From Leptothermofonsia sichuanensis E412 (GTDB lineage Bacteria; Cyanobacteriota; Cyanobacteriia; Leptolyngbyales; Leptolyngbyaceae), in contig NZ_CP072600.1 of assembly GCF_019891175.1 (NCBI RefSeq), positions 4,588,001-4,652,000 of the forward strand: a stretch of 64,000 nt of DNA, in the 5' to 3' direction. Positions 20,910 through 37,352 of the stretch are shown piece by piece. Each line of letters starts with the position of its first letter. Within the stretch, counting starts at the first letter, position 1. The position numbers and the translations under genes were made by a program. The notes under the pieces are model-generated. The model saw nothing but the letters and a program-made list of their open reading frames with translations. It was not told where the DNA came from and made no database searches.

Positions 20910-22028
20910 TCAGATGGGTATATCCCGAATTGTGAAATAAAATGTTGTCCCCACATCCAGTTCCGAGTCTACCCAGATCAGTCCACCATGATTTTCGACA
21001 ATCTTCTTACAGGTCGCTAAACCAATGCCAGTACCAGGATAGTGTTTGGCTGACTGAGTGCGCTGGAATATTTCAAATATCTGGTCAAGATTATGAGACG
21101 CGATTCCAATTCCATTATCGTGTACTCCAAATATCCAATAGTTTTCTTGGTTCTTAACTGAGATCTTGACCTGTGGAATTACATTAGGATGAACAAATTT
21201 AATCGCATTACCAATTAGATTTTGCAAAAGCTGAATCAGTTGAGCTTCATTACCCATCACAACTGGCAATGAATCGTAGGAAAGAACGGCCTGTTTTTCA
21301 GCGATCGCAAGTTGCAAATTATCTAAAACTTGTTTCAACACATGACAACAATCAACTGGCTGGAATTCCTGATTCTGACTACCCACCCTGGAATAAGCCA
21401 GTAAATCTTGAATTAACCGTTGCATACGACTCCCGGCATCATGAATTCGGTTGAGATAGTCCAATGCTACGTCATCAAACTCATCCTGGTACTTTAACTG
21501 AATAAGCTTGATGAAACCTGTAATACTTTGCAGGGGTTGTTGTAAATCATGGGAAACCACATAGGCAAACTGCTCCAGTTCCCGATTAGAACGAGCGAGT
21601 TCCTGATTTTGTTCGGTCAATTGCTGCTGTAAACTCTGAATGCGCAATTGGTGTTCAATGCGGGCTAATACTTCAATTTCCTGAAATGGTTTTGTCACAT
21701 AGTCTACACCCCCTACAGAAAAGGCTTTTACCTTATCTAATGCATCGTCCAATGCACTGATGAAAATGATAGGAACCTCACAGGTTTGTGGATCCGATTT
21801 CAGGTGTTGACAAACTTCATAGCCATCCATTTCAGGCATTTTGATGTCCAGCAGGATCAGATCTGGCGGGTCTGCCTGAACAGAGGCGATCGCCCGCTGC
21901 CCATTCAATGCTTTGCGAACTTCAAACCCCTGATTGGTCAACATCGCAGATAGGACACGCAGATTATCAGGTGTATCATCCACCAACAAAATATCTCCCC
22001 GTAGGGTATCAGATAAATACTGTGGCAT
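20910..22028 (-). CDS. Hybrid REC-histidine kinase
   Basis: This soluble 372-residue protein has an N-terminal receiver (about 12-128, phospho-acceptor D61 in LLDIKMPEMDG, K113), a coiled-coil linker (about 128-155), a HisKA domain with H160 in VVSHDLQQPLQ, and an HATPase domain with N-box LLQNLIGNAIKF, DNGIGIA and GTGIGLATCKK. The DLQQPLQ H-box is of the phytochrome-kinase type, unlike the ELRTPLN boxes of its upstream neighbours. The ATG is preceded by AGAGGAGTTAAAT, a strong ribosome site. It lies 37 bases after the truncated kinase and appears to be the last gene of the operon. Confidence 0.92.
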   Translation of the reverse strand: MPQYLSDTLRGDILLVDDTPDNLRVLSAMLTNQGFEVRKALNGQRAIASVQADPPDLILLDIKMPEMDGYEVCQHLKSDPQTCEVPIIFISALDDALDKVKAFSVGGVDYVTKPFQEIEVLARIEHQLRIQSLQQQLTEQNQELARSNRELEQFAYVVSHDLQQPLQSITGFIKLIQLKYQDEFDDVALDYLNRIHDAGSRMQRLIQDLLAYSRVGSQNQEFQPVDCCHVLKQVLDNLQLAIAEKQAVLSYDSLPVVMGNEAQLIQLLQNLIGNAIKFVHPNVIPQVKISVKNQENYWIFGVHDNGIGIASHNLDQIFEIFQRTQSAKHYPGTGIGLATCKKIVENHGGLIWVDSELDVGTTFYFTIRDIPI

Positions 22029-22065
22029 ATTTAACTCCTCTACAGGATTATCTTCAGAACTCTAC

Positions 22066-23952
22066 TCAGGATTCAAATCTGGCATCCATCAATTGTTGAA
22101 TCAAATCTGTCACTTTATCAAACTGGAAATCTCTCACCCATGTTGTCAGACTGGTGGCCAGAAGGTCACAGTCTATGGGGATTTGAGTGACCAGTTGAAA
22201 AATTTCCTGATCAAACCCTTTAATTGCAGCCTGGTGGAGTTGGGCAGTCCACTCAGGTGACATCCGAGCCAGACAGCCAACGAGCTGCTGATCGATAACC
22301 TGTTCATCGGTTTGAGGTCTGGTTTCTGATTTCAGCCTCAATTCCAGGTCGAAGCGATTACTGGCGGGCGGGGGCTGGCTCCCGTCAATTTTAGCAATCT
22401 CCAGCAGATCATTAATCAAAGCCAGAAGATAATTGCCATTACGATGCATAATCTTTAAGCGTTCTTGATGTTCTGCTGTGAGTGAGGAGTCCCGTTGTAA
22501 TACCTGAGTTGCACCCAGAATGGCATTGAGGGGCGTTCGCAGTTCGTGACTCATGGCTTCCAGAAATTTACTTTTTGCCAAACTGGCGGATTCAGCCGCT
22601 GTCTTAGCCTCCACCAGTTCGGCTGTGCGATGGGCAACTCGATCTTCCAATTCAGTAAAGGCTGACTTCAGGCGGATTGCCATCTGGTTCAAGGACTGGG
22701 ACAGATTCCCCAGTTCCCGAATCCCTTGCACCTCAATCATCTGGTCAAAATTACCATTGGCGATCTCCTGACTGACCATAACCAGATGCTGAATCCGTTG
22801 GCTGAACCAGCGTGAAGTCAGCAGTCCCAGCAGGATGGCCGATGCCAGAGATAATAAACATAACAGAATGGTAGTCCGGGTGTTGGCATTAATTTCTTCC
22901 ATGAAATCAGATTCTGGTACGGCAACGACCACCAGCCAGTCCAGTCCGTGATCGTCTTTCCAGGGAGTGACCTGAACAAATTGCTGTTGCTCAGCCATTG
23001 CAAAACTCAGTTGGTGGACGGATTGAATGTGCGCCAATGTGCTAAAGTGCCGGGTGAGGTAATCAATTGTTGCTTTGATCAGGGGGTCACGGCTTTGGAA
23101 TGCGGCCATCCGTTCAGCCTTACCTGCCCTCAGAATGAATGGTGGCTCTGAAGCAGAACTTGCTACCAGCAATCCACTGCGCTCAATGATAAAGATTTTG
23201 CCGGCTGGGTTGGGCTGTATTTTTTGCAGAAAAAGCCCCAGGTCTGAAAGAATCAGATCAACCCCAATCACCCCTAACAGTTGGTTTTGAGGGGTGTAAA
23301 TTGGGTAACTAGATGAAATTGACAGCACCTCCGGTTTGTCATCCCATGGATAGATTGCACTCCAGAGCGGTTTTTGGGCCTTAGCCGCATCCGCATACCA
23401 ACCTTCTTCATACACTGGCGCTTCCACAGAAAGAATAGTTTCCAGCTTAACCCGGTTGCCCTGTTCATCGGTTTTATAGATGAACAGACTGGAGAGGGAA
23501 GGTCTGCGAGTCTCATTAATGACAATCGCTCCGTCCGCCAGTCGTTCAACCCCAATGAATTCCCCTTCAGGATTCGCAAAGTTGATGTAGCCAACTTTAA
23601 AGATTTGCATCTGCCGATAGAACGTGCGTCCCAGGCGATCGAAGTCTTGCAAGTTAAGGGAGCCAACCTTGATGGCATCCAAATTTAGTTGATTAATTTG
23701 ATGGGGAAGCCGCAATTGATCTGCAAGATGGTCTGTGACTTGAGTGCTGGTTTTGCTGCGTAATTGAGTGGCCAGATCCTTAATCGCTTTTTCTCCATTA
23801 CGAAGGGACAGCCAGCCCGTTAATCCCACAGCGATCAGAATTTGTAGCACAAATAGTACAACCAAAACCAGACGTAGTGGCACGCCACAAAAAAGGAGGG
23901 GCGATCCACGAAAACCTTTAGAACTGGAAGGGAAAGGAGGCAAGACGTGCAT
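22066..23952 (-). CDS. Cache-HAMP-HisKA sensor protein lacking ATPase domain
   Basis: Of about 628 residues, TM1 covers about 25-46, an extracellular dCache-like domain about 55-345, TM2 about 360-380, HAMP about 382-435, a coiled coil about 435-460, and a HisKA domain has its phospho-acceptor His at about 469 in EAMSHELRTPLN. After LLEIAKIDG the sequence keeps only the short RFDL element and then passes straight to MSPEWTAQLHQAAIKG, the C-terminal module shared with the two upstream kinases. No N, G1 or G2 box and no receiver are present, so it cannot autophosphorylate alone. The frame is intact. Start at ATG 23952; a TTG at 23970 is possible. It begins 28 bases after the preceding gene's stop. 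Confidence 0.88.
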   Translation of the reverse strand: MHVLPPFPSSSKGFRGSPLLFCGVPLRLVLVVLFVLQILIAVGLTGWLSLRNGEKAIKDLATQLRSKTSTQVTDHLADQLRLPHQINQLNLDAIKVGSLNLQDFDRLGRTFYRQMQIFKVGYINFANPEGEFIGVERLADGAIVINETRRPSLSSLFIYKTDEQGNRVKLETILSVEAPVYEEGWYADAAKAQKPLWSAIYPWDDKPEVLSISSSYPIYTPQNQLLGVIGVDLILSDLGLFLQKIQPNPAGKIFIIERSGLLVASSASEPPFILRAGKAERMAAFQSRDPLIKATIDYLTRHFSTLAHIQSVHQLSFAMAEQQQFVQVTPWKDDHGLDWLVVVAVPESDFMEEINANTRTTILLCLLSLASAILLGLLTSRWFSQRIQHLVMVSQEIANGNFDQMIEVQGIRELGNLSQSLNQMAIRLKSAFTELEDRVAHRTAELVEAKTAAESASLAKSKFLEAMSHELRTPLNAILGATQVLQRDSSLTAEHQERLKIMHRNGNYLLALINDLLEIAKIDGSQPPPASNRFDLELRLKSETRPQTDEQVIDQQLVGCLARMSPEWTAQLHQAAIKGFDQEIFQLVTQIPIDCDLLATSLTTWVRDFQFDKVTDLIQQLMDARFES

Positions 23953-23980
23953 ACCCAATGAACCGAACAATGAATCTGGG

Positions 23981-26900
23981 TCAGGAGGGTGATTTCACAA
24001 GTGGCTGGGTTAAATGGATAATTTCATCAAACTGAAAATTCTTGATCCAGTTAATCAGTGACTGTGCCAGAGGATCAGAGGTTTCAGGAATTTGCTCAAT
24101 TAATTGGAAGATCAGCCTATCCGATCCCTTGATTGCCGCCTGATGCAGTTGCCGGATCCAGGCGGGTGGCATCTGAGCCAGGAGAATCCCTAAATCATGC
24201 TCTGTAGATGGAGGGGGAAATGGCTCTTTCCAGTCATTTTCCGGGTTGTCAGCGTTTTCGTACACATAGCGAACCCCCAGATGTTCGGCTAATTTAGCCA
24301 GCAGGGTACTTTCCTGAATCGGCTTGCGCAAGAAGTCGTCACAGCCGATCGCAGCCGCTGTCATTTGGGTTTCCTCAAAAACACTGGCCGTAAGCGCAAG
24401 GATTTTAGTGTGGGAGTGAGGGCAGGAGCCAGGGTAGGAGTGGGCCAGAGCGGATGAGGCTATTGCATGGGGCTGGAATTTGCCAGCATCCCTGGCCTGT
24501 TCGATCGCCCGAATCTTCTGGGTCGCTTCTGCCCCATTCATCCCAGGCATTCGCATATCCATCAAAATCAGATGTGGACGCCACCTTTCCCAAAGTGCAA
24601 TCCCTTCTTGCCCATTTCTTGCTTCACACACCTCAAATCCAAGGGGAACTAATAATTTCACCAGAAACTGGCTGTTTTCCCACTGGTCTTCCACGATCAA
24701 GATGCGCCAGGGGGGCTGGTCAGGGGCAATGCTAATAACCCGTGCCTGGTTTAGGGGAGGGGCTATGTCTGCGGCTGGGGACTGGCTAACCCGGATATGA
24801 AATTTGAACAGGCTTCCCTGGGAAATTGCACTACACACCATAATGTCCCCTCCCATAAGATGAATGAACTTCCGACTAATTGCTAGTCCTAAACCCGTTC
24901 CCTCATTGGCTTGCTGACCGGCGCTGGCTTGGGCAAAGGGTTGAAACAAATCTTTGAGTTCTTCTGAGGCAATGCCGGGTCCAGTGTCTTCAATCTCAAA
25001 CATCAGGGTGATAGGGGAATAGATGAGGGCAGATGGGGCATCAGCGGATTTCCCATTCTTCCATGCTTCTGCTTCGGCTCTCTCGACCTGTGCCCGTAGC
25101 GTTACCCTGCCTGTTTCTGTAAATTTGATCGCATTGCCAATTAAGTTCAGCAAAACCTGGCGCAGTTTGCTTTCATCCGTAATGATATATCGGGGTAGAT
25201 CGGGGGCGCGCTCAAAGGTGAGCATCAGTTGCTTGGCATTGGCTCTGACGCGCAGCATGATTTCCAGATCATCCAGCAGGTGGTACAAGTCAAACCTAGT
25301 TTCATTGAGCCGGACCCTGCCTGCTTCGATTTTGGACATTTCCAGGACATCGTTGATCAACCCCAACAAATGTTGTCCGCTACGGTTAATGATGTCCAGA
25401 TGGGTTTGATGTTCGGCACTCAGGGAAGGGGCATGATTCATCACTTGAGTAAAGCCCAGAATGACATTCAGAGGCGTGCGTAACTCATGGCTCATATTTG
25501 CCAGAAATTCGCTTTTAGCCCGGTTGGCTTTTTCACTCCGAGCCGCTTCGCGAATGGCGATTTCTTTTGCCTGTTGTAGTTCAGCTTCTGCCTGTTGATG
25601 GTCGGTAATATCTTCAAGGAGTAATAGAAAGCCGTCTATCTGGTTGATCGAGTTTCTGCGACTTGGGAAGGTGGGATAGGTTAAAGGTTGCAGTATGAGG
25701 TCAAACCAGCGATCGCCCTGCTGCAAATTCCCGTATTTGATGGGGTTTCCTGCTTTTAAGCGGTCCAGACTGATCTGCCACTGTTCTGGGCTGAGCCAGT
25801 TAGCCATCCGCTGGTCATTCAGATGGCTACCCACCTCTACCTGAAGCAAACGGGCAGCCACCGGGTTACAAAACCAGACATCCCCATTCAGATCCGCTGC
25901 CAGCAACCCGATCGGGAGGGTTTGGGCGATCGCCGTTTGGGCTGAATGGGAACGCCCCAACTGCTCCGCGAGTGCCGCCAGTTGAGCCACCCGTGACAGA
26001 GCATTTTTAGGTTGAGGTAATTTCTGCTTCTGCACGGGAATTAACGGATGGTTAGTATCGACCCCATTCATAATCAGGTCCTGGCGGTAGTGTTGCCAGA
26101 GATGGTCAATCTGGCGGCGTAACAGGTAGTCTTCCCTCAGGCGATCGCTCAGCGCCACAACGACCGCCGTTGTGGCAAACAGGGCAATAGCAGGCGAGAT
26201 TGGCAGCCAGTAGTGGGCCTGAAACAACAACAGAGCCAGTAATGCCCAACCGCTACACAATCCAGCAATGACAACCAGTTGTTGGCGGGTGTTCCAGGCT
26301 GACATCAGCCAGCTTAAAGCCGGTGCGCTCAACAGCAACAGAACCCATAGCCCGCTTCGCTGGAGGGGGTGCAAGGGATTCTGCTGTAACAGATTTTGGA
26401 TCAGGGTGGCGTGGAGATAAACACTACTGGTAGGGGGATTGCGATCAAATGGAGTGACCAGCGGATCTAGCCCGGCTGCCGTTACTCCCACTAACACAAT
26501 CTTGTGGCGCAGGTTCTGGGCAGAAACGTTGCCGTGAATCACATCAACCAGGGAATAGGAGCGTAACTGTGAGCCTGGGCTGACCCAGTTGATCCAGAAG
26601 GGTTGATCTAAATCAGGCAGCGGGACAGGGGTCTGGACCAGGCTATAGGATTGCACGGCTGCCACGCTCAAAGCGGGGTGTCCATGGATTTGTAAATCAA
26701 CCTGCCGGACTAAACCATCGGTATCTTCTCGCTTCAGGACATGCCCGGTGGCGATCGCATCTGTGGCCAGCTCAGGAACAGGCACCAGGGGGGTTCCGGT
26801 TTTGTCCCATGCCTGTGCCAGGACAACCATTCCCTGACTCCTGATTGCCTGTGATAGTTGAGTGTCCTCTGGACTGGGTTCTGACCACAGTAAGTTGATG

Positions 26901-27181
26901 ACAACAACGCTGGACTCGGCGGCTGCCAGGGTGTTGAGTAGCCGGGTATAGTATTTCCGGGAGAGGGGATAGCGCCCCAGTTGTCGGAGACTGACATCAT
27001 CAATTGCCACGACCACCAGCCGCTCATCCCAGGGCATCGCTCCCCGTGCTCGAAACAGGTGATGATAAGCGATATGCTCTAATGGCTGAAAAGCACCCTG
27101 ATGCAGCAGCAACGCGATCGCGATCGTGGCGACTGCACCCGGCAGAAACCGCCATGCGTGTTTGCATAGAAGCCTATTCAT
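23981..27181 (-). CDS. CHASE2-PAS hybrid histidine kinase with C-terminal receiver
   Basis: This protein has 1066 residues. A first TM (about 13-30) precedes an extracellular CHASE2 domain (about 33-280, VVVAIDDVSLRQLGRYPLSR, DPLVTPFDRN) and a cluster of TMs (about 283-345). Then come a PAS-like domain (about 415-520), HisKA with H565 (NMSHELRTPLNVILG), HATPase with LRQVLLNLIGNAIKF, DTGPGIA and GTGLGLAIS, a receiver with D875 (LILMDMRMPGMNG), and a C-terminal 60-residue module (about 1002-1062). It probably signals from the periplasm to its own receiver. Its ATG overlaps the preceding gene's stop by eight bases (ATGAATAG), indicating translational coupling. Confidence 0.93.
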   Translation of the reverse strand: MNRLLCKHAWRFLPGAVATIAIALLLHQGAFQPLEHIAYHHLFRARGAMPWDERLVVVAIDDVSLRQLGRYPLSRKYYTRLLNTLAAAESSVVVINLLWSEPSPEDTQLSQAIRSQGMVVLAQAWDKTGTPLVPVPELATDAIATGHVLKREDTDGLVRQVDLQIHGHPALSVAAVQSYSLVQTPVPLPDLDQPFWINWVSPGSQLRSYSLVDVIHGNVSAQNLRHKIVLVGVTAAGLDPLVTPFDRNPPTSSVYLHATLIQNLLQQNPLHPLQRSGLWVLLLLSAPALSWLMSAWNTRQQLVVIAGLCSGWALLALLLFQAHYWLPISPAIALFATTAVVVALSDRLREDYLLRRQIDHLWQHYRQDLIMNGVDTNHPLIPVQKQKLPQPKNALSRVAQLAALAEQLGRSHSAQTAIAQTLPIGLLAADLNGDVWFCNPVAARLLQVEVGSHLNDQRMANWLSPEQWQISLDRLKAGNPIKYGNLQQGDRWFDLILQPLTYPTFPSRRNSINQIDGFLLLLEDITDHQQAEAELQQAKEIAIREAARSEKANRAKSEFLANMSHELRTPLNVILGFTQVMNHAPSLSAEHQTHLDIINRSGQHLLGLINDVLEMSKIEAGRVRLNETRFDLYHLLDDLEIMLRVRANAKQLMLTFERAPDLPRYIITDESKLRQVLLNLIGNAIKFTETGRVTLRAQVERAEAEAWKNGKSADAPSALIYSPITLMFEIEDTGPGIASEELKDLFQPFAQASAGQQANEGTGLGLAISRKFIHLMGGDIMVCSAISQGSLFKFHIRVSQSPAADIAPPLNQARVISIAPDQPPWRILIVEDQWENSQFLVKLLVPLGFEVCEARNGQEGIALWERWRPHLILMDMRMPGMNGAEATQKIRAIEQARDAGKFQPHAIASSALAHSYPGSCPHSHTKILALTASVFEETQMTAAAIGCDDFLRKPIQESTLLAKLAEHLGVRYVYENADNPENDWKEPFPPPSTEHDLGILLAQMPPAWIRQLHQAAIKGSDRLIFQLIEQIPETSDPLAQSLINWIKNFQFDEIIHLTQPLVKSPS

Positions 27182-30100
27182 GACCCAGAGACTCTATCAG
27201 TTCCACTATCTTATCGAAATGGAAATCAAGCACCCATGCCTTTAAGCCCTGTGCCAGATGAGAATGGGCATCGGGCAGTTGTCCAATCAGATTCAGTATC
27301 CACCGATCCTTACCCAGGACGGCCGCCTGATGCAACTGAGCAATCCAGTCAGCCGGTATTCCATCCAGGGATGAACTATCCAGAATCTGCTCTTCCCTAA
27401 AAGAGCAGAACGAAGATGAGTCGAAGTCATCATAACCACTGATCATTTCTCCGATCTCATCTCTGGTTTCGTAGGCGTATTGAACATTCAAATGTTGCGC
27501 TAATTTAGCAAAAACCTCCTCTGCCCGGAATGGCTTGCTGATAAAATCATCACACCCTGTCTTCAAAATAGCCGAGCGATCTTCATCAAAGGCGCTACTG
27601 GTGACCGCAATGATCCTGGTCGTCTCAGGCAACCCGCCAATCCGGTTCCCTTCTTTGCGAATCTGTTCCTCCCTCGCCCGGATTTGCCGGGTTGCCTCAT
27701 AGCCATTCATGACTGGCATTCGTATATCCATCAACACCACATGCGGACGCCAGCTTTCCCAAAGAATTATGCCCTCTCGCCCGTTGCTGGCAACCTGGAC
27801 ATCAAACCCTACGGGTTGCAGTAGATTCACCAAAACCTGCTGATTTTCCCAATGGTCTTCCATAATCAGCACACGGTAGGGCGGGTGGCCGGGAACCAGA
27901 CTGACAACCCGTTGTGATGGATAGGAGACAGGGGGTTGTGCCGTTTGAGCTGGGGTAGCCTGAATATTAAACCGAAAAATACTACCTTGACCGACTACAC
28001 TGTCAACGGTGATGGTGCCTCCCATCAACTGGACAAACTTCTGGCTAATGCTTAATCCCAGGCCAGTGCCTTCAGAAGGTCGCTGCCCTGTACGGATTTG
28101 CACAAAAGGCGTGAACAGTCGTTGTAAATCCTGGGGGGCAATACCAGACCCCGTGTCTTCAACCTCAAAGCAAAGGGTGATGGGGTGATCGGGGGAAGCG
28201 ATCGATGGTTTTGGCTTGATGGCCTGGTGCTCCTGCTCGCCCTCATTTTTACGCACTCCAAAATTCTCACCCACCACGGACACCCGCAGGGTCACGCCCC
28301 CTTTCTGCGTAAACTTAATCCCATTGCCCAACAGATTTAACAAAACCTGCCGCAGTTTTCCTTCATCCGTAGTGATATATCGGGGGACATTGGGAGACTG
28401 TTCAAATGTGAGGCACAGTTGCTTAGTCCTGGCTTTGAGATAAAGCATCTCGTAGAGAGTATCCAGTAGCGCGTAAAGATCGAAGCTGGCAGATTGCAGC
28501 TTCAGCCTGCCTGCCTCAATTTTGGACATTTCTAACACATCATTGATCAACGCCAGTAAGTGTTGTCCACTGCGGTTAATGATCGTCAGATACTCCCGGT
28601 TGCGCAGGCTGAGGAGATTGTCATGGCTCATAATCTGAGTGAAGCCTAGGATCGCATTGAGGGGCGTGCGCAACTCATGGCTCATGTTTGCCAGGAACTC
28701 GCTTTTAGCCCGATTGGCAGCTTCCGAAGCATCTCTGGCTTTTTCCAAAGCGATGGATTGCTCTTGAGTTTGGACCAGAAGTTTTGACAAAGCGACCTCT
28801 GCCTGTTTGCCCTCTTTATAAAGAGACAGCGCAAACGCCGCCGCACTCAGAAGACTAATTTCTAAACTGTCCCAGTTTCGGGCTGTCACACAGTTGTCAA
28901 ACCCAATAAATCCACAAAATTCCCCTTCTACAATCAGGGGCAAAATCAGAATGGCAAGAATGCCCTGGGGTTCCAGAACAAAACGCTCTGAATCAGGAAA
29001 ATCTGCAACGACACCGTTGATGATGGTTCCCTGGGATAAAGCGGTTGCCCACCGGGGGAAAAAATCTTGATAGGAAAGGTTTTGCAGCATCGGGTTGTTG
29101 ATTTCGGGTGAGATTCCTTCCGCACACCACTCGGCGCGTTGACTCATCAACAGGTTGCCCTGCTCATCCCGGCTATTTTCAAACAAGTAAACTCTCGATG
29201 CCCCAGAGGCTAACCCCAATTGCTGGAGGATTTCGTTATGGTGGACTTGATTATTTTTGGAAGCAAGTAGCAGGCGTTGAATCTCTACTAAGGCCATGAG
29301 ATATCGTTCCCGCTTTGCCAGGGCGGCTTCTGACTGTTTGCGATCGCTGATATCGGTTGCCACGCCAAGGACTAAGATAGATTGACCATCCATGGCCTCA
29401 ATCGGTTTTTTGATGGTCTGAAAATCACGAGTTTCGCCAGCGGCAGAAGTCACGGTTTCATCCAGCAGCCTGGGTTGGCGAGTACGGATGACCTGCCGAT
29501 CTGTCTCCAGAAAGTGCTCAACTTCAGCCAGATTAGGATTGAAGTCTGCATCTCTTTTACCAATCAAGTTTTCAACCGTTGTGCCATAAATTTCGGCAGT
29601 GGCTTTGTTTGCCAGAACAAATCTACCGTTCCAGTCTTTGGCAAAAATCAGATTGGGTGCGGTATCAATCACATTGCGAAGAAATGTTTGTTGCCGCCTC
29701 AGGGCTTCTTCGGCCTGTTTGCGATAGGTAATATCCGTATCGACCATGAACACAATCCAGCAATTTGCCTTCTCATCCCATTGCACAGTGTAGGTTTCAG
29801 CCAACCAGTGCCAGTTTCCATCAGCATGGCGGAAACGGTACTCAATTTTCCCCTCCCGCCCTGCCTCGATATCAGCCCGGAGTTGGGTCAGGTATCGGGC
29901 CAGATCCTGCGGGTGCACTTGTGACATCCACAGATTAGAATCGGCGGCATGCTCCTCAATGGAAAGGCCAAAGAGTTGTAAATATCCGGCTGAGCGGTAA
30001 TCCACAATCCAGGTGCCATTCGGAAAAAACCGAACACTGGCAATTGCCGCTGGCACCTTATTAAGAATATTGTTGAGTTTTGTTTCCGAAGCTTGCAGGG

Positions 30101-30989
30101 CAAGTTCAAGCTGTTTGCGATCGCTGATATCTGTACTGGAACCCAAAACTCGAATCGGGTTTCCAGCCTCATCCCACACTGCCAAAACCCGATCCAGAAC
30201 CCATTTGTATGTGCCATCCTTGCAACGCAGACGGTACTCTTGCGTTAACTGTGGAATCTCTCGTCTGAGGTAAGCTTCTTTGGTAGCAAGGACACGATCG
30301 CGATCGTCCGGGTGCAGAAGTTCGAGCCATTGCTCTCTGGTATGGGCAAACTCCTGGTCTGAGTATCCCAGCATTTGCTTAAACCGCTTCGAGTAGCAGC
30401 CTTTCCCCGTTGTCAGGTCGATATCAAAAATGCCATCATTGCTGGCTTGAATCACCAGTTGCCAGCGCTCTTCGTTCTTGCGTAATTCGTCCAGGGCACG
30501 GTTACCCTCAGACTGAAGCTCCGAACGAGCGTTCTGGTCATTCTGTTCTCGATGCCTGATTGCCTTGAGTAAACTATTGGCTGTGATTAAACCAACGGGT
30601 TGATGTTGGTCATTAATGATTGGCAGGGCAGAGATCTGGTGTTGCTGAAACAGGGTCAATACAAAATCTATATCCTGGAGATCCGTGTGATTCAATACTA
30701 AATTCTGATTGCTAATCACAGTCGAAACAGGCTGAGTCATTGCGTCAGTGTCGAGACCAATGAAGCGCAACCCATCTCGTTCGCTAAATGAACCAACTAG
30801 TCTCGAAGAATCTGCTTCAACCACCAGCAGGCACGGAGATTCTGTTTCCCTCAACAAGGCGATCGCCGCTTTCAGACTAGCATTTGCTGCGATCGTGGGT
30901 GGATGCCAGTTAATAGCCGCCGTGAGTGAACTATCTATAGACTGCATCGGGCGATCGGTTTCAATATTCTTCGATTCCACCATAATCAT
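27174..30989 (-). CDS. CBS-PAS-GAF hybrid histidine kinase with C-terminal receiver
   Basis: This soluble 1271-residue protein has a CBS pair (about 20-145), PAS/PAC units with characteristic DRKQ or YRKQ ends (about 165-295, 300-430 and 435-555), a GAF domain (about 570-735), and a coiled coil. HisKA carries H771 (NMSHELRTPLNAILG); the HATPase has LRQVLLNLLGNGIKF, DTGSGIA and GTGLGLSIS; the receiver has D1088 (VVLMDIRMPVMNG); and a terminal module is near 1205-1268. CBS domains often bind adenine nucleotides, so energy or second-messenger state may be sensed. It starts 25 bases after the EAL gene. M3 is an equally good start. Confidence 0.93.
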   Translation of the reverse strand: MIMVESKNIETDRPMQSIDSSLTAAINWHPPTIAANASLKAAIALLRETESPCLLVVEADSSRLVGSFSERDGLRFIGLDTDAMTQPVSTVISNQNLVLNHTDLQDIDFVLTLFQQHQISALPIINDQHQPVGLITANSLLKAIRHREQNDQNARSELQSEGNRALDELRKNEERWQLVIQASNDGIFDIDLTTGKGCYSKRFKQMLGYSDQEFAHTREQWLELLHPDDRDRVLATKEAYLRREIPQLTQEYRLRCKDGTYKWVLDRVLAVWDEAGNPIRVLGSSTDISDRKQLELALQASETKLNNILNKVPAAIASVRFFPNGTWIVDYRSAGYLQLFGLSIEEHAADSNLWMSQVHPQDLARYLTQLRADIEAGREGKIEYRFRHADGNWHWLAETYTVQWDEKANCWIVFMVDTDITYRKQAEEALRRQQTFLRNVIDTAPNLIFAKDWNGRFVLANKATAEIYGTTVENLIGKRDADFNPNLAEVEHFLETDRQVIRTRQPRLLDETVTSAAGETRDFQTIKKPIEAMDGQSILVLGVATDISDRKQSEAALAKRERYLMALVEIQRLLLASKNNQVHHNEILQQLGLASGASRVYLFENSRDEQGNLLMSQRAEWCAEGISPEINNPMLQNLSYQDFFPRWATALSQGTIINGVVADFPDSERFVLEPQGILAILILPLIVEGEFCGFIGFDNCVTARNWDSLEISLLSAAAFALSLYKEGKQAEVALSKLLVQTQEQSIALEKARDASEAANRAKSEFLANMSHELRTPLNAILGFTQIMSHDNLLSLRNREYLTIINRSGQHLLALINDVLEMSKIEAGRLKLQSASFDLYALLDTLYEMLYLKARTKQLCLTFEQSPNVPRYITTDEGKLRQVLLNLLGNGIKFTQKGGVTLRVSVVGENFGVRKNEGEQEHQAIKPKPSIASPDHPITLCFEVEDTGSGIAPQDLQRLFTPFVQIRTGQRPSEGTGLGLSISQKFVQLMGGTITVDSVVGQGSIFRFNIQATPAQTAQPPVSYPSQRVVSLVPGHPPYRVLIMEDHWENQQVLVNLLQPVGFDVQVASNGREGIILWESWRPHVVLMDIRMPVMNGYEATRQIRAREEQIRKEGNRIGGLPETTRIIAVTSSAFDEDRSAILKTGCDDFISKPFRAEEVFAKLAQHLNVQYAYETRDEIGEMISGYDDFDSSSFCSFREEQILDSSSLDGIPADWIAQLHQAAVLGKDRWILNLIGQLPDAHSHLAQGLKAWVLDFHFDKIVELIESLGHE

Positions 30990-31014: not shown

Positions 31015-32148
31015 TTAAGTTGCCTCAGGCAATGGCGTAAACGATTTGGAAACATGGAGATGACGATTAGCTTGCATTTCAGTACTTGACCGAAAAGATT
31101 GGATGAGAGCACTTGCCGCCTGACTGTCCAGTGGTTTGGAAAACAGATAACCCTGCATTTTGGTACAGCCCACTGCCTGCAATGCTGCCAGGTCTTCAGT
31201 GGTTTCAACCCCTTCTGCAATTACCTCCAATCCCAGCCTGGTGGCTAACTGAACGATCATTTCGCTGATATCCCATTGTTTACTTTGAATAAAGGAGCGA
31301 TCAATTTTCAATACATCAATGGGTAACCCCTGCAAGCGATTCAAGGAGGAATAACCTGTACCAAAATCATCCACATAAAGCTGGATTCCCAGTGCTCTCA
31401 GTTCTAAAAGCACGGCAAGGGCACTTTCCTGATTTTCAATTAAGGCACTCTCAGTAATTTCTAGCTTCAAACTGTCTGGCGCAATTCGGCTTTCTGCCAG
31501 AATGTGCTGGATCTCTTGACTTAAACCGGGCTGCATAAGTTGCAGAGCAGAGAGATTGACACTAACCGTCAGGGGTGGCGTAGAGGGAAATTGCTGCTGC
31601 CAGGCAGAAATCTGGTTACAGGCGCGCTCCAGAATTTTCATACCCAGGACATGAATACATCCCATCTTCTCTGCTAGTGGAATAAAGATCGCAGGCGGGA
31701 TCATGCCTCTGGTGGGATGGTGCCAGCGAGCCAAGGCTTCAAATCCAAGGATTTGATGGTTGTCAGTCGAAATAATGGGCTGGTATACCAGGCAAAATTC
31801 CTGGCGTTCAAGCGCCTCATGCAATTCATTCTCTAGCTGTAGTTGCTGAATGACTTCGTCTGATAAAACGGTCATTGGCAGGATGGGCCTGTTTTCAATG
31901 GCATTGGCCAGACGAACCAAACGATTGGCATTGTTGATCGCGATCGCCAGTATGCGCTGCCCCTCATCGGACAAACAACCCAACTGCCCGGTGTTTAGAA
32001 GCCCAAGTGCTCCTTGAATGGAAGTCAATGGTGTGCGTAATTCATGGCAGATGTATAGTGTGGCATCTTTCAGATAGCTGATTGAGGAGCTTTCAGTATC
32101 ACCCCCATGCCCAAAACTGGTCTGATGAGCGTCTTCAGACATAACCAT
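31015..32148 (-). CDS. HisKA-EAL fusion, putative c-di-GMP phosphodiesterase
   Basis: This protein has about 377 residues. An N-terminal HisKA domain (about 25-95) carries a phospho-acceptor H35 in YICHELRTPLTSIQGALGLL but is not followed by an ATPase domain. A full EAL domain (about 104-350) follows with FEALARW, SVNLSALQL, LEITESAL, VDDFGTGYSSL, LKIDRSFI and AEGVETTEDL, the metal- and substrate-binding set expected of active c-di-GMP phosphodiesterases; no GGDEF domain is present. No membrane segment is seen. The ATG at 32148 is chosen; an in-frame TTG at 32247 would add 33 residues. It precedes the CBS kinase by 25 bases. Confidence 0.92.
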   Translation of the reverse strand: MVMSEDAHQTSFGHGGDTESSSISYLKDATLYICHELRTPLTSIQGALGLLNTGQLGCLSDEGQRILAIAINNANRLVRLANAIENRPILPMTVLSDEVIQQLQLENELHEALERQEFCLVYQPIISTDNHQILGFEALARWHHPTRGMIPPAIFIPLAEKMGCIHVLGMKILERACNQISAWQQQFPSTPPLTVSVNLSALQLMQPGLSQEIQHILAESRIAPDSLKLEITESALIENQESALAVLLELRALGIQLYVDDFGTGYSSLNRLQGLPIDVLKIDRSFIQSKQWDISEMIVQLATRLGLEVIAEGVETTEDLAALQAVGCTKMQGYLFSKPLDSQAASALIQSFRSSTEMQANRHLHVSKSFTPLPEAT

Positions 32149-32286: not shown

Positions 32287-32616
32287 CTAAAATTCCTTCC
32301 TGAAATCGGCATCTCCCTGGCTAAGCGATCGCAAACTGAGCCAGACCGTATAGCAGATTTTAGAAACCGTAATACAGACCCTGATTCCCTGTTCAGTCTG
32401 GGCATAGGCAACTTCATAGGCTTTCAACCGTTCATTGGGAGAAAAGGATTGATGGTGGGCATAGAGTTCATTGTTGTAACGGATTCCTGGTTGAATCCCT
32501 TCGTCCCAATACTTGAATGGGATGACCAGACCTTCATCCAGTACCAGGGGGGGAGTTATCTCTACTGAATTCCTGCTTGGGGGCAATGACTGTCGGTAAT
32601 CGGGTTGTGCCAGCAT
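32287..32616 (-). CDS. Small hypothetical protein upstream of the HisKA-EAL gene
   Basis: This frame of 109 residues includes VLDEGLVIPFKYWDEGIQPGIRYNNELYAHHQSF, NERLKAYEVAYAQTEQGIRVCITVSK and YTVWLSLRSL, a composition that looks like a genuine soluble alpha/beta protein rather than noise. It lies on the operon strand, 138 bases before the EAL start, and may be its first gene. There is no clear ribosome site at ATG 32616, and later starts are possible. A plus-strand frame over the same bases looks less protein-like. Confidence 0.5.
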   Translation of the reverse strand: MLAQPDYRQSLPPSRNSVEITPPLVLDEGLVIPFKYWDEGIQPGIRYNNELYAHHQSFSPNERLKAYEVAYAQTEQGIRVCITVSKICYTVWLSLRSLSQGDADFRKEF

Positions 32617-33055: not shown

Positions 33056-33442
33056 TTAAAAATCGGCTCTCCAGTTGAGTGCGGTAGCAATTTGATTGCC
33101 CAGTAGCCCTGGGTCAAAGGGTTTCGTCAGAACTGCCTGGGCACCCAGTTCAGCATACTGACGTTGAGTAACAACATTCCCGGTTGCGGTTAACATAATC
33201 ACCGGAATCGGTTTGGTTTCTGGGTTGTTTTTGAGTGTTTTGAGGGTCAAGAGTCCATCCATTTCGGGCATCACCACATCCAAAAGGATGGCATCGGGAT
33301 GGTATTTGGTGGCGATCGCCACTCCTTCTTCGCCAGAGGCAGCGGTCAACACCTTCCACCGTTTGGTGATTTGCAGGCTCATTTTGGCTATTTCACGGAT
33401 ATCTGCCTCATCATCGATTACCAGGATTTGTTTCACGCTCAT
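33056..33442 (-). CDS. Single-domain (CheY-like) response regulator
   Basis: The 128-residue protein consists of one receiver domain: acidic pair in VIDDEADI, phospho-acceptor in ILLDVVMPEMDGL, Thr in MLTATGN and Lys in LTKPFDP. With no output domain it must act through protein contacts or as a phosphate carrier in a relay. ATG at 33442, with another ATG one codon upstream. It lies downstream of, and on the same strand as, the kinase and REC-wHTH-HPt-REC genes but is separated from them by 320 bases including a family A repeat, so co-transcription is uncertain. Confidence 0.9.
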   Translation of the reverse strand: MSVKQILVIDDEADIREIAKMSLQITKRWKVLTAASGEEGVAIATKYHPDAILLDVVMPEMDGLLTLKTLKNNPETKPIPVIMLTATGNVVTQRQYAELGAQAVLTKPFDPGLLGNQIATALNWRADF

Positions 33443-33765
33443 CACGATTCAATTCCTAAGCAGCAATCACAGCAATCAGGAGCTTAAATTCCTACCAACC
33501 AGATAAAGTGTTCCCTGATTGGGGAGCAAACATTCCATTCCCTGTTCTGTCATCATACGATAGGGGAAAATCATGAACCTGAGCTACACCAGAATCTTTA
33601 GTACGGCATCTTAATCAATTCACATTCCCAAGGAACGAGGGTTTTATCACCTGAAACTTCACCACAGAGGCACGGAGAACAAGAACACAGAGCAATTCCT
33701 CTGTGCCTCTGGGGTAAGTCCTGAGTTTTTCGGTTGATTGAATCCACGATCCTAAGCGTTCTAAT
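33443..33765. other. Intergenic region with a family A repeat
   Basis: The 323-base gap between two same-strand regulator genes contains the family A hairpin at 33661-33715 and no other recognisable element. Confidence 0.5.
33661..33715. repeat. Family A hairpin repeat
   Basis: ACCACAGAGGCACGGAGAAC faces CCTCTGTGCCTCTGGGGT. Confidence 0.8.
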
Positions 33766-35319
33766 TTATCCTGGTTTCTGCCAGGTTCGCAAAAGCCGAT
33801 TCCGTTCCAGACGATTGAAGATCCGCGTGACAATCTCCGGTTCGATGAAGGGCTTGGACACATAATCATCTGCCCCAGCACTATACATTTGCAGGACAAT
33901 CTCCGGATTTCGATAGGCAGTCAGGAACAGAATTGGTAGTCCGCTCCAGGCACTCTCGTTACGAATTGCCCGACATAACTCAATGCCACTGACCTGGGGC
34001 ATATCCACATCCAGGATCAGGAGGTCAGGCATTTCGGTTGCCAAAACATCCCACAGTTGCAGCGGATCGCTGAGTGTGGAGATTTCAATACCCCAATGGG
34101 GGAGGAACTGACGTAAAGTTTCCAGAACCAGGGGGTCGTCATCCACCGCCAGCACTTTAATTGGGAGTGATGGTAGATTCTGGGCCTGTCGCCCTGTGAT
34201 ACAGGTCGATGCTGGAGGCTGGTCAGCCAATGATGGTTGCTCCGAAACCGTCCTGCTATCTGTACTCTCCTGACTCAGGGAGATGAGTAAATCGTCATCG
34301 GACAGTTGGGGGGGGTGCTGAAGGGTTTGCTGCAACTTTGTGACCAGGGATTGCAGTTGTTCAACGCTCTCAGTTCCGGCGGCTTGAAACCAGCGTTCAA
34401 TTTCCTGCCCCAGTTGGGTACCGGCTGGAAAACCAAACATGCCCAGGGAGCCTGCCAGTTTATGGGCAGCGGCAGTGGCAGCCCGGCCCAGTTCCTCAGG
34501 CAGGTTGCCAGCGGTCAACGCTTCAACTGCCTGCTCCAGGGTTGCCACCCGTTCTAAAATTGAGGGTTTGAACTGCTCCCAGAGGGCGATCGCCGCTGCC
34601 CGTGCCTGGTCAGTTGTTGACGATTGCTGTGGGATTGGGGTGTCCCTTTCTACTGGAGGTTTAAGGCGATACCCCATCCCATAGACCGTATCAATCATAT
34701 CCTCTATGCCTGCGGATTTAAGTTTGCGGCGCAATCGCTTAATGTGAGTCCTGATGGTCTCTTCCCCAGGAGCATCAAATCCCCAGAGATGTTCCAGGAG
34801 GATGCTACTGCTGAACACCCGTTGGGGATTGCGCAGGAATAGCTCTAACAAACCGTACTCCTTCGGTGATAGCGCCAATCGTTGCCCCTGATAGGTGACT
34901 TCGCAGGTGCCCGGATCCAGGACCAGGTCACCCCACTCCAGAATGGGGCTGGTGGACGGATTGTAACGGCGCGTCAAGGCCCGAATCCGGGCAGACAGTT
35001 CTTCTGTGGTGCAGGGTTTAACCAGATAATCATCCGCACCCGCATCCAGACCTATGACTTTATCCGCACTGCTGCCCAGAGCAGTCAGCAAGAGAATGGG
35101 TACGGTACATCTGGCTTGCCGCAGTTTTTGGCAAAGCTGGATGCCATCCAGTTTCGGCAGGTTGATATCCAGCACAATCAGGTCATAAGCCGCCGAACGT
35201 GTATAGTCCCATCCGGCTTCACCATCTTTTGCCACATCCACCACATAGTGCTGCGATGTCAAATGACTTACCAGGGTTTGGATCAGCAGTTCATCGTCAT
35301 CCACTAACAGGATTCTCAT
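33766..35319 (-). CDS. REC-wHTH-HPt-REC phosphorelay transcription factor
   Basis: This protein of about 517 residues has an OmpR-type receiver (about 1-118, D51 in VLDINLPKLDG, K101) and a winged-helix DNA-binding domain (about 125-222, ALSPKEYGLLELFLRNPQRVFSSSILL and TIRTHIKRLRRKL). An HPt domain follows (about 240-335) with H286 in AAHKLAGSLGMFGFPAG, and a second receiver (about 387-510, D437 in LILDVDMPQVSG, K-P-F at the end). All relay residues are present. ATG at 35319 gives the normal receiver start and has AGGGTGAC upstream; ATG 35337 is possible. The kinase gene ends 14 to 32 bases upstream, so the pair is cognate by position. Confidence 0.92.
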   Translation of the reverse strand: MRILLVDDDELLIQTLVSHLTSQHYVVDVAKDGEAGWDYTRSAAYDLIVLDINLPKLDGIQLCQKLRQARCTVPILLLTALGSSADKVIGLDAGADDYLVKPCTTEELSARIRALTRRYNPSTSPILEWGDLVLDPGTCEVTYQGQRLALSPKEYGLLELFLRNPQRVFSSSILLEHLWGFDAPGEETIRTHIKRLRRKLKSAGIEDMIDTVYGMGYRLKPPVERDTPIPQQSSTTDQARAAAIALWEQFKPSILERVATLEQAVEALTAGNLPEELGRAATAAAHKLAGSLGMFGFPAGTQLGQEIERWFQAAGTESVEQLQSLVTKLQQTLQHPPQLSDDDLLISLSQESTDSRTVSEQPSLADQPPASTCITGRQAQNLPSLPIKVLAVDDDPLVLETLRQFLPHWGIEISTLSDPLQLWDVLATEMPDLLILDVDMPQVSGIELCRAIRNESAWSGLPILFLTAYRNPEIVLQMYSAGADDYVSKPFIEPEIVTRIFNRLERNRLLRTWQKPG

Positions 35320-35351
35320 GTCACCCTGGCTTCCCATACATTGTTCTGTTT

Positions 35352-37160
35352 CTATGATGCCCTAATTTGCAGTACAGAACGGGAATTAGACTCTGTGCCT
35401 GATCGGGCCGGAGGAGAGGGAGCAGACTCCGGCTGCAAGATGGGAATTTCAATTACAAATTCGGTGCCCTGCCCCACCTGTGAATGGCATTGGAGTCGCC
35501 CACCGTGTTTTTCGACAACGATTTTATAGCTGATGGATAGCCCTAATCCAGTTCCTTTGCCAACGGATTTAGTGGTAAAGAAGGGATCAAAGATTTTGGA
35601 CCGGATGGATGCCGGAATACCGGGACCATTGTCTGCAATCCGGATAGCAATCAAATTATGGGGCAGAACTTCGGTGTGAATGGTGATGGTCGGCAGAGAG
35701 GAGAGACAGGTCTGGTTCACCTCAGAATTCAACACTTTGGACTGAAAACTGTCTTCCAGGGCATCAATCGCATTACTCAAGATATTCATAAATACCTGAT
35801 TCAGTTGACCGGGGTAGCAATCAACGAAGGGTAAGGCACCATAGTCTTTAATGACTCGAATGCCCACAAAGTCAGGTCTTTCCTTCAGACGGCTGTGCAA
35901 GATCATCAGGGTGCTATCAAGGCCTTCATGAAGATTAGCGGCTTTGAATTCCGCTTCATCAAGGCGGGAAAAGTTACGCAGAGATTTGACAATTTCACGA
36001 ATGCGATTCGTGCCAGCCTGCATGGATTGAAATAGCTTGGGTAAGTCTTTTTCAAGGAAATCAATGTCAACCTCATCAAGTTTTTGCTGAATCTGAGATG
36101 CTAAACCAGGATCCGACGCCGGAGTCTGGTTTCGATAAAGACGCACCAGATCCAGTAAATCCTGGGAATATTCCTGGGCGTATCTGAGATTGCCATGAAT
36201 AAAATTGACTGGATTGTTAATTTCATGGGCAACTCCGGCAACCATGACACCTAAGGCAGACATTTTTTCTGATTCCACCAATCGGGCTTGCATGGCCTGA
36301 AGATCATTAAATGAATGCTCTAACTGAGCAGTCTGCTCTCTCAAAAAGGCTTCTGCCTGTTGCAATTTTTGAAATGCCTGTTCCCGCTCTCGCTGGCTTG
36401 CCTGCACCTGCTGAGCCAGTCTGTGACCATAGGCGGTAACGCTGACAATCATAATCAGTAGCATGAGGGCGATCGCAACTTCATACAGCTTTAACGTATC
36501 GGTTTCCTGTTTCTGTTGGGTAAACGTCTGCTGCTGAATTTCACTCACATTCTGACGCAGGTGGTTCAGTACCTGATTTACCCGGAAGTATTGGCGATCC
36601 ATCATTGCCATCCGTCTGCCTGCCATTTCTGGCTGATTTTGCCGGAAGTCAGAAAAGATCAGCCTGGCTTCATTGACCATGACTGCCATTGCCTGCTCCA
36701 GAGCATCCAAATTCTTAAGTAGGGGACCTGACTGAGTCGCGTCTACGTGGATGCGCAATTCCCGCCGGGTGTCTGCCACTTTTTGATAAAAGTGCTGTAA
36801 TGCGGCATTCAGTCGGGCTGACTCTGCCGCAGGGTCATGGGAGGCAAACACATCATTGCCGGGAGCATTCACCGCTGCGGCCAATTGACCCAGCTCAGAA
36901 TAGTCTTGCAATCGAGTTGCCCAGTCCCGATTTACTTCAACGGATTGGGCATAGGTCATTGTGATTTTATGGCTGAGATAGAGACTGGCTGAGATAGCCA
37001 GCAGATTAAATATCGCCAGCAGATAATAGAGGTAGTGCCATCTGGGTTTTGGTAGCTCCGTCGCCTGTGGGTAAGGACGATGTTTCAGCAGTCGGCTGAC
37101 TGGTGTGTTATCGAACCACTGGGAAACCTTTTGAGGGATGGGCAATTGAGCCTGTGCCAT
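35352..37160 (-). CDS. Membrane histidine kinase, partner of the REC-wHTH-HPt-REC regulator
   Basis: This protein of about 602 residues has TM1 (about 46-68), a helical periplasmic sensor of roughly 170 residues rich in Arg/Gln (about 70-240, [19 protein letters not shown]), and TM2 (about 243-263). A coiled coil follows, then an H-box in [22 protein letters not shown], with N-box [23 protein letters not shown] and [13 protein letters not shown] in the ATPase domain. The [12 protein letters not shown]-box is common in cyanobacterial kinases. It ends in a Ser/Pro-rich tail. ATG 37160 is used; the frame extends to 37316, but that part is unlikely to be coding. Confidence 0.9.
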
Positions 37161-37291
37161 CGCTGGGAACCTTGTGCAGAAATCTCCACAAAGTTTAGGT
37201 AGGAAATGTGACAAGCGCGTGGCAAAGAAGAGCTGTCTGTATAAATTTTTATGATTTTCACCTGGAAGTGAGAATTTCATAAGCTGAACTT

Positions 37292-37352
37292 TACACGACA
37301 GAAGCACAGGGAACACAAAGCAATTCCTCTGTGCCCTCTGTGTTTCTATGGT
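37292..37352. repeat. Family A hairpin repeat
   Basis: ACACGACAGAAGCACAGG faces CCCTCTGTGTTTCTATGGT, a diverged copy upstream of the kinase gene. Confidence 0.7.

Follow-up and report, generated by a model that had tools for sequence, protein, structure and literature searches.

What can a protein do with the phospho-acceptor hairpin of a histidine kinase when no ATPase domain follows it and a c-di-GMP phosphodiesterase domain stands there instead? The question is raised by a 377-residue protein, here named HE, encoded on the minus strand at positions 31015..32148 (ATG start at 32148) of the 64,000-nucleotide stretch of the Leptothermofonsia sichuanensis E412 genome analysed here, which we call the window. 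The original prediction, which left the strand unstated, held that this HisKA-EAL protein leads an operon of full kinases and could be phosphorylated by them in trans or form mixed dimers with them, giving direct phospho-control of c-di-GMP hydrolysis without a receiver domain. We characterized HE through its open reading frame, Pfam matches, an AlphaFold2 model and a 26-row family alignment, and set it against its genomic neighbours and the kinases that most resemble it.

Domain composition and family of HE

HE contains a HisKA (DHp) hairpin at residues 32-84 (31897..32055; Pfam PF00512, E 7.5e-11, 42.4 bits against a cut-off of 26.9) and, starting 23 residues on from the end of that match, an EAL phosphodiesterase domain at residues 107-339 (31132..31830; PF00563, E 1.8e-74, profile positions 2-236 of 236). 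These were the only domains found: Pfam gave no HATPase match in HE at E ≤ 1 and no Response_reg match in the chain, and neither a PAS input domain nor an ATPase-like domain appeared in Pfam or in the model. The hairpin bears the phospho-acceptor box CHELRTPLTSIQGALGLL, in which the putative acceptor His is residue 35 (codon 32046-32044), and the EAL domain bears all of the motifs FEALARW, SVNLS, LEITES, DDFGTGYSSL, KIDRSF, AEGVET and QGYLFSKP, whose residues we take to be catalytic or metal-binding. The AlphaFold2 model, made from a 21-row alignment with a mean pLDDT of 83.2 (a single-sequence prediction at 49.1 was set aside), consists of a two-helix hairpin (residues 19-53 and 61-86), a poorly ordered linker at about 87-96 and a confident EAL fold, leaving no space for a concealed ATPase domain. 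Pfam and the model together ruled out such a hidden domain, and the recurrence of the identical architecture in many genomes ruled out a frameshift or assembly artefact.

The best structural match was the BifA EAL domain (8arv; Z 34.6, rmsd 1.3, 249 aligned, VIA-align), in a comparison whose rows span residues 94-355, thus the EAL part only, and have no bearing on the HisKA fold. RocR in the PDB likewise matched the EAL part, as did the NCBIfam PvrR model, far under its cut-off. Judged by its motifs, the EAL domain looks active as a phosphodiesterase, and HE should not autophosphorylate because the ATPase domain is absent. The observation at the core of the original prediction has held up: a HisKA domain is fused to an EAL domain with no ATPase domain, the phospho-acceptor box looks complete, the metal- and substrate-binding motifs of the EAL domain are in place, and self-phosphorylation is not to be expected.

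A search for HisKA-EAL proteins without HATPase, proposed at the outset as a check, uncovered a conserved cyanobacterial family. A profile spanning the HisKA-EAL junction found it in 13 of 386 cyanobacterial genomes sampled across the phylum, with at most 10 candidates scored per genome and no match falling between E 1.7e-49 and 4e-31, and full-length HE was present in 10 of the 42 genomes of the window's order, a tally made by eye from the match listing (G000, G001, G002, G003, G012, G013, G028, G032, G033 and G039). Given that full-length homologs with the same domain order occur in many genera, the architecture is more than a chance product. The family set comprised 26 distinct genes from 25 loci, with open frames of 327-426 residues. 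In EAL-only trees, all 26 HE rows grouped together against 43 other EAL rows, most of them from the same genomes (SH-aLRT 96), and were separated from five outgroup rows with support 99/98, so that HE lies on one side of a branch, which fits a single origin. Relatives beyond Cyanobacteria were sought in 29 loci from genome contigs (two of them, L038 and L039, being the same contigs as L009 and L012), among which four carried full-length HE, all cyanobacterial (L038-L041). Most of the remaining loci matched in the EAL part only and one, L066, in the HisKA part only; a Sulfurovum locus (L045) matched HE residues 15-342 within a 1105-aa frame, and a Deinococcus plasmid match spanned HE residues 15-351 in a gene of 716 aa annotated as an EAL protein.

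Within the family, residue 35 is His in 21 members, Tyr in three (L098 plus L100 and L157, which are near-identical relatives), Asp in L091 and Gln in L097, a distribution that takes at least four changes on the EAL tree. All five His-less members retain the EAL motif residues in the alignment. Every one of the 26 members has the individual motif positions E(AL), N, DD, K, E(G) and Q, and LEITES lacks its first Glu only in L069_9903, a protein that bears His. This exception is the second of two tandem HE genes in genome G028 (L069 8821-11069), whose contig also carries a third HE; it reads FEAIAQW, LKITEG and DDFGIAYSLL, and its EAL domain may be impaired.

Around residue 35, Arg38 and Leu41 are invariant, Glu36 is kept in 25 members and Thr39 in 22. 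The conservation of Glu36, Thr39 and their neighbours indicates a hairpin conserved beyond the need of a mere dimeriser, yet one in which the acceptor His is dispensable. Since His35 was lost in 5 of 26 members with the EAL motifs kept, the family as a whole cannot have phosphorylation of this His as its core function. The HisKA regions of the four His-less proteins that were scanned scored 16.9-26.2 bits, under the Pfam cut-off of 26.9, and are therefore possibly decaying domains. His35 may still play a role in the window's own HE, most of the family having kept the residue.

Neighbouring genes, HisKA types and the stand-alone receiver

HE lies among two-component genes on the minus strand. 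Downstream of it, by Pfam, are a CBS-PAS-GAF-HisKA-HATPase-REC hybrid kinase (27174..30989, 25 bp away), a CHASE2-PAS-HisKA-HATPase-REC hybrid kinase (23981..27181), a dCache-HAMP-HisKA protein (22066..23994, a stop-to-stop frame whose true start lies further in) and a REC-HisKA-HATPase kinase (20910..22061). Upstream are a conserved 109-aa protein (32287..32616), a stand-alone receiver that we call RECl (33056..33445), a REC-winged helix-Hpt-REC protein that is a probable phosphorelay member (33766..35337) and, further upstream, a HisKA-HATPase histidine kinase (35352..37316). Two full hybrid kinases thus follow HE on the same strand, as had been claimed, but the third gene of the supposed operon of full kinases has a HisKA domain without a HATPase match, and the minus-strand genes upstream mean that HE may not be the first gene of its transcript. 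With the gene embedded in a two-component locus, phospho-control of c-di-GMP hydrolysis through a partner is likely, and that part of the original prediction stands; the part about control without a receiver probably does not, a receiver domain being likely to reside on another polypeptide.

The dCache-HAMP-HisKA protein is the second ATPase-less HisKA protein of the locus. Neither it nor its homologs in L070, L040 and L075 (48-66% identical) gave a Pfam HATPase match, each of those homologs lies next to a receiver-bearing gene, and the C-terminal tail of the window's protein is like that of the hybrid kinases, as though both the ATPase domain and the receiver were excised. Its HisKA domain resembles, by eye, those of the co-operon kinases, making mixed dimers more plausible there than for HE. 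The REC-winged helix-Hpt-REC protein is common in the window's order (33 of 42 genomes at E ≤ 1e-90) and so not HE-specific, and REC-REC relatives occur upstream of RECl in several HE loci. REC-REC proteins at L068 4978-7380, L098 6536-8917 and L233 11226-13793 have a terminal GGDEF domain, and one phosphorelay may accordingly set both synthesis and breakdown of c-di-GMP.

We built a profile of the HE HisKA domain from 12 His-bearing family rows and scored it over the 77 HisKA places of the window's genome. HE itself reached 115 bits, five full kinases, all with their ATPase domains, reached 73.7-83.1 bits, and the next place reached 41, whereas the two co-operon hybrid kinases scored 28.4 and 27.5 bits, respectively. 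Pairwise identity followed the same order, with 28-32 of 62 positions identical to the five HE-type kinases against 20 of 61 and 19 of 60 to the co-operon kinases. The 80 distinct kinases of the fetched loci gave a bimodal distribution, 15 lying at 58-91 bits and the rest at or below 30, and all 15 HE-type kinases retain the His. Compared with most of these kinases, HE has lost the KDEF-type entry ahead of the hairpin and, behind it, the ILD(L/I)ER-type hinge, and retains the middle of the hairpin.

Stand-alone receivers lie upstream of many HE genes, and most of them are closest to each other, forming the subfamily RECl, whose window member is the proposed partner of HE on the grounds of its Pfam Response_reg match, subfamily alignment, linkage and co-occurrence. 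The acidic pair, phospho-Asp, Thr and Lys of the receiver active site are invariant in the subfamily alignment. A RECl profile picked out six genes in the window's genome at 160-210 bits, the next scoring 103: one is in the window, three lie downstream of HE-type kinases, and no HE-type kinase was found in the stretches fetched around the remaining two. The five HE-type kinases had been selected by HisKA similarity alone, and RECl lies directly downstream of three of them (at 1.825, 1.870 and 4.255 Mb) and of none of the 71 other HisKA places, judged by the positions of the six RECl genes (Fisher p 1.4e-4, a value that, like the other p-values given here, overstates the evidence because the rows are related by descent). 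In the pooled loci, RECl adjoins 7 of the 15 HE-type kinases and none of the 65 others, three of the seven being in loci fetched for RECl and both the RECl and the HE-HisKA profiles being partly built from loci on which they were counted. RECl therefore looks like the cognate regulator of the HE-type kinases, and HE appears to carry their receiver-binding face.

RECl is also associated with HE itself. Of the 26 HE genes, 19 have it in their fetched stretch, 14 at a distance of no more than 2.5 kb, and none of the 39 GGDEF-EAL control genes does, the control stretches being on average slightly shorter; the seven HE genes with no RECl in their stretch include two, L073 and L075, that have less than 1.6 kb of upstream sequence. 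By genome, the window's RECl found a relative at E ≤ 1e-40 in 8 of the 10 HE genomes of the order, G013 and G039 giving none at that threshold, and in 1 of the 32 others (G011; p 3e-6). Across the phylum sample, RECl was found at E ≤ 1e-38 in 7 of 13 HE genomes against 3 of 373 others, and the other six HE genomes carry a more diverged RECl at most 173 bp from HE, overlapping it in one (L092-L097). The RECl profile matched in all 13 HE genomes, but also in 59 of the 373 HE-less genomes. When any upstream same-strand stand-alone receiver within 2 kb was counted, 10 of the 23 HE genes with 2.5 kb of upstream sequence had one, against 4 of 41 control rows (p 0.003), and of these four control receivers one belongs to the L078 fusion described below, the other three being of a different subfamily. 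Given that RECl also occurs in HE-less genomes and that half of the RECl genes of the window's genome stand beside kinases, the linkage could reflect shared regulation rather than contact. In the second RECl cluster of genome G012 (L208 9341-10116), a 108-aa EAL fragment, possibly the remnant of an HE copy, lies between two RECl genes.

A second protein joins the same HisKA type to c-di-GMP enzymes. At L078 8506-10200 (genome G037), Pfam delineated a HisKA-GGDEF-EAL protein of 564 aa with Tyr at the position of the acceptor His. An HE-type kinase gene and then a RECl gene precede it, the latter 157 bp away, and 179 bp beyond it comes a relative of the 109-aa protein. The EAL domain of this fusion groups outside the HE clade in the EAL-only tree. 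Shared transcription alone does not readily account for two fusions of one HisKA type to c-di-GMP enzymes that each lie next to RECl. A search for more HisKA-GGDEF fusions gave none in 273 genomes, an uninformative sample since it held no genome known to carry one.

The 109-aa protein was followed by blastp, alignment and profile, and in 9 of 26 family loci one of its relatives is encoded no more than 600 bp from HE. In L072, such a relative is near HE with neither RECl nor a same-strand kinase nearby. The window's protein matched no Pfam family at E ≤ 1 and no plasmid sequence, and its best PDB match, at E 0.017, was not convincing. Its wider family occurs in 36 of 42 genomes at E ≤ 1e-6, and the high scorers (≥132 bits, in eight genomes) all lie beside HE or the L078 fusion, in a search whose profile was built from them.

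Proposed mechanism and competing readings

Taking HisKA type, linkage and co-occurrence together, we tentatively propose, at somewhat less than an even chance, that HE is a split response regulator in which the HisKA hairpin serves as the docking site for RECl and the chemistry of the His is optional. The input module of HE would be the hairpin of a cyanobacterial kinase class whose own response regulator is RECl, with the ATPase half of the kinase gone and the EAL domain placed after a short linker. The HisKA domain of HE would dimerise like that of a kinase. RECl, having received its phosphoryl group from HE-type kinases or through the local phosphorelay of hybrid kinases and Hpt protein, would dock on the hairpin beside residue 35, just as it presumably does on its cognate kinase, and docking would alter the arrangement of the two EAL domains, switching c-di-GMP hydrolysis on or off. 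Where His35 is present, it may add return phosphotransfer or dephosphorylation of RECl~P, neither being essential to the design. A wider version, which we regard as possible and rather doubtful, is that kinase docking domains were excised and fused to c-di-GMP enzymes at least two times (HisKA-EAL and HisKA-GGDEF-EAL), such that one stand-alone receiver would obtain its phosphoryl group from its cognate kinases and be sensed by phosphodiesterases mimicking those kinases, with a small protein of the 109-aa type as a third part.

Retention of His35 in 21 and of Glu36 in 25 of 26 members is more than docking needs and counts against a pure docking role. It would suit a HE that acts as a phospho-accepting or phosphatase module for RECl~P, with phospho-His or phosphate flux controlling the EAL domain, a reading that we consider unlikely though substantial. 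In the available part of a study of histidine kinases, the DHp domain alone suffices for phosphatase activity, with Glu at H+1 bearing on kinase activity and Thr or Asn at H+4 on phosphatase activity (PMC3510030), the latter position corresponding to Thr39, kept in 22 of 26. The phosphorelay parts of the locus, namely the Hpt protein and hybrid kinases, are in keeping with such a module, and the association with RECl supports it as much as it supports docking. The distribution of RECl leans the same way, RECl lying within 2.5 kb of 13 of 21 His-bearing members and 1 of 5 His-less ones; among the latter it is close only in L097, about 7-8 kb off in three, and none was seen at L091. What weighs against this module is that the His is absent in five members and the Thr at the phosphatase position in four, with the EAL motifs kept (one Thr-less member, L071, bears the His), and that the independent L078 fusion has Tyr in place of the His.

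Phosphorylation of His35 in trans by the full kinases of the operon, or mixed dimers with them, as in the original prediction, could draw on the two hybrid kinases that follow on the same strand, on the mostly kept His and Glu, and on neighbourhood counts: within 1 kb downstream, 14 of 26 HE loci have a HATPase gene on the same strand, compared with 6 of 43 EAL controls (p 8e-4), and any kinase lies within 1.5 kb of 19 of 26 HE genes against 15 of 39 controls, the last comparison being weak evidence. Around seven of the 26 HE genes, by contrast, neither strand carries a kinase within 1.5 kb (L072, L073, L076, L091, L094 and both L069 genes). Together with the mismatch of HisKA type, the co-operon kinases scoring below 30 bits and the HE-type kinases above 70, and with the five losses of His, this weighs against the reading as the function of the family; we consider it improbable, although it may still apply to the window's own HE. 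That the hairpin is a constitutive dimerisation scaffold for the EAL domain with no phospho-input, its neighbours reflecting shared transcription, we hold to be improbable. In its favour, EAL enzymes are active as dimers, DHp hairpins bring about dimerisation, and the His is dispensable in the family; the residues near the His, however, are conserved beyond what a coiled coil would need, with Arg38 and Leu41 in every member, and a scaffold leaves the RECl association without explanation.

If the split response regulator is the correct reading, a second-messenger enzyme would be under two-component control with no receiver of its own, carrying the face of a kinase and borrowing the response regulator of that kinase. 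The usual flow would be reversed, with a receiver controlling a kinase-like domain, and one receiver would gain several outputs. Some of the 'incomplete kinases' set aside in genome censuses could then be receptors for receivers. The naturally His-less members and the match to a kinase type make the idea directly testable with two or three purified proteins.

Relation to known systems

HE resembles REC-EAL regulators of the RocR and PvrR type in that its EAL phosphodiesterase is proposed to be switched by a receiver, and differs from them in having no receiver in its chain, RECl being proposed to act in trans. It also resembles the DHp-type phosphotransferases Spo0B and ChpT, which have a helical hairpin with a His and no kinase activity. 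Unlike HE, these proteins retain a degenerate ATPase-like second domain and have no enzymatic output, whereas HE has its EAL domain at that place.

In Caulobacterales and Rhizobiales, EAL proteins have been described that also bear HisKA, HATPase, Hpt and HAMP domains (PMC9756655, available part, which does not enumerate all architectures); HisKA and EAL in one chain are common to those proteins and HE, and HATPase and Hpt, both in the cluster described there, are absent from HE. A census of thermophilic cyanobacteria describes HisKA-only phosphotransfer proteins as stand-alone (PMC9953108); a HisKA domain without HATPase is shared with HE, and the word EAL is absent from the available main text. 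In their available parts, these two and three further reviews or censuses (PMC8846402, PMC13075795 and PMC1183210) mention EAL proteins with HisKA and HATPase, or HisKA-only proteins, and not HisKA-EAL proteins without ATPase, for which a literature search, with subscription papers and supplements outside its reach, yielded no paper recognised as describing them.

The nearest parallel to the proposed use of the hairpin is DivL-DivK of Caulobacter, in which, as proposed for HE, the DHp surface of a former kinase would sense a receiver that stands alone. According to the available part of PMC4211667, DivL is a pseudokinase with Tyr in place of the His; it uses the receiver-docking face of its histidine kinase region to bind phosphorylated DivK and can act in vivo without kinase activity. 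Receiver docking has been tested for DivL, and for HE we infer it from linkage, co-occurrence and HisKA type. Tyr replaces the His, as in DivL, in three HE members and in the L078 fusion. Unlike HE, DivL keeps ATPase-like and PAS domains and acts on another kinase, whereas HE has an EAL output of its own.
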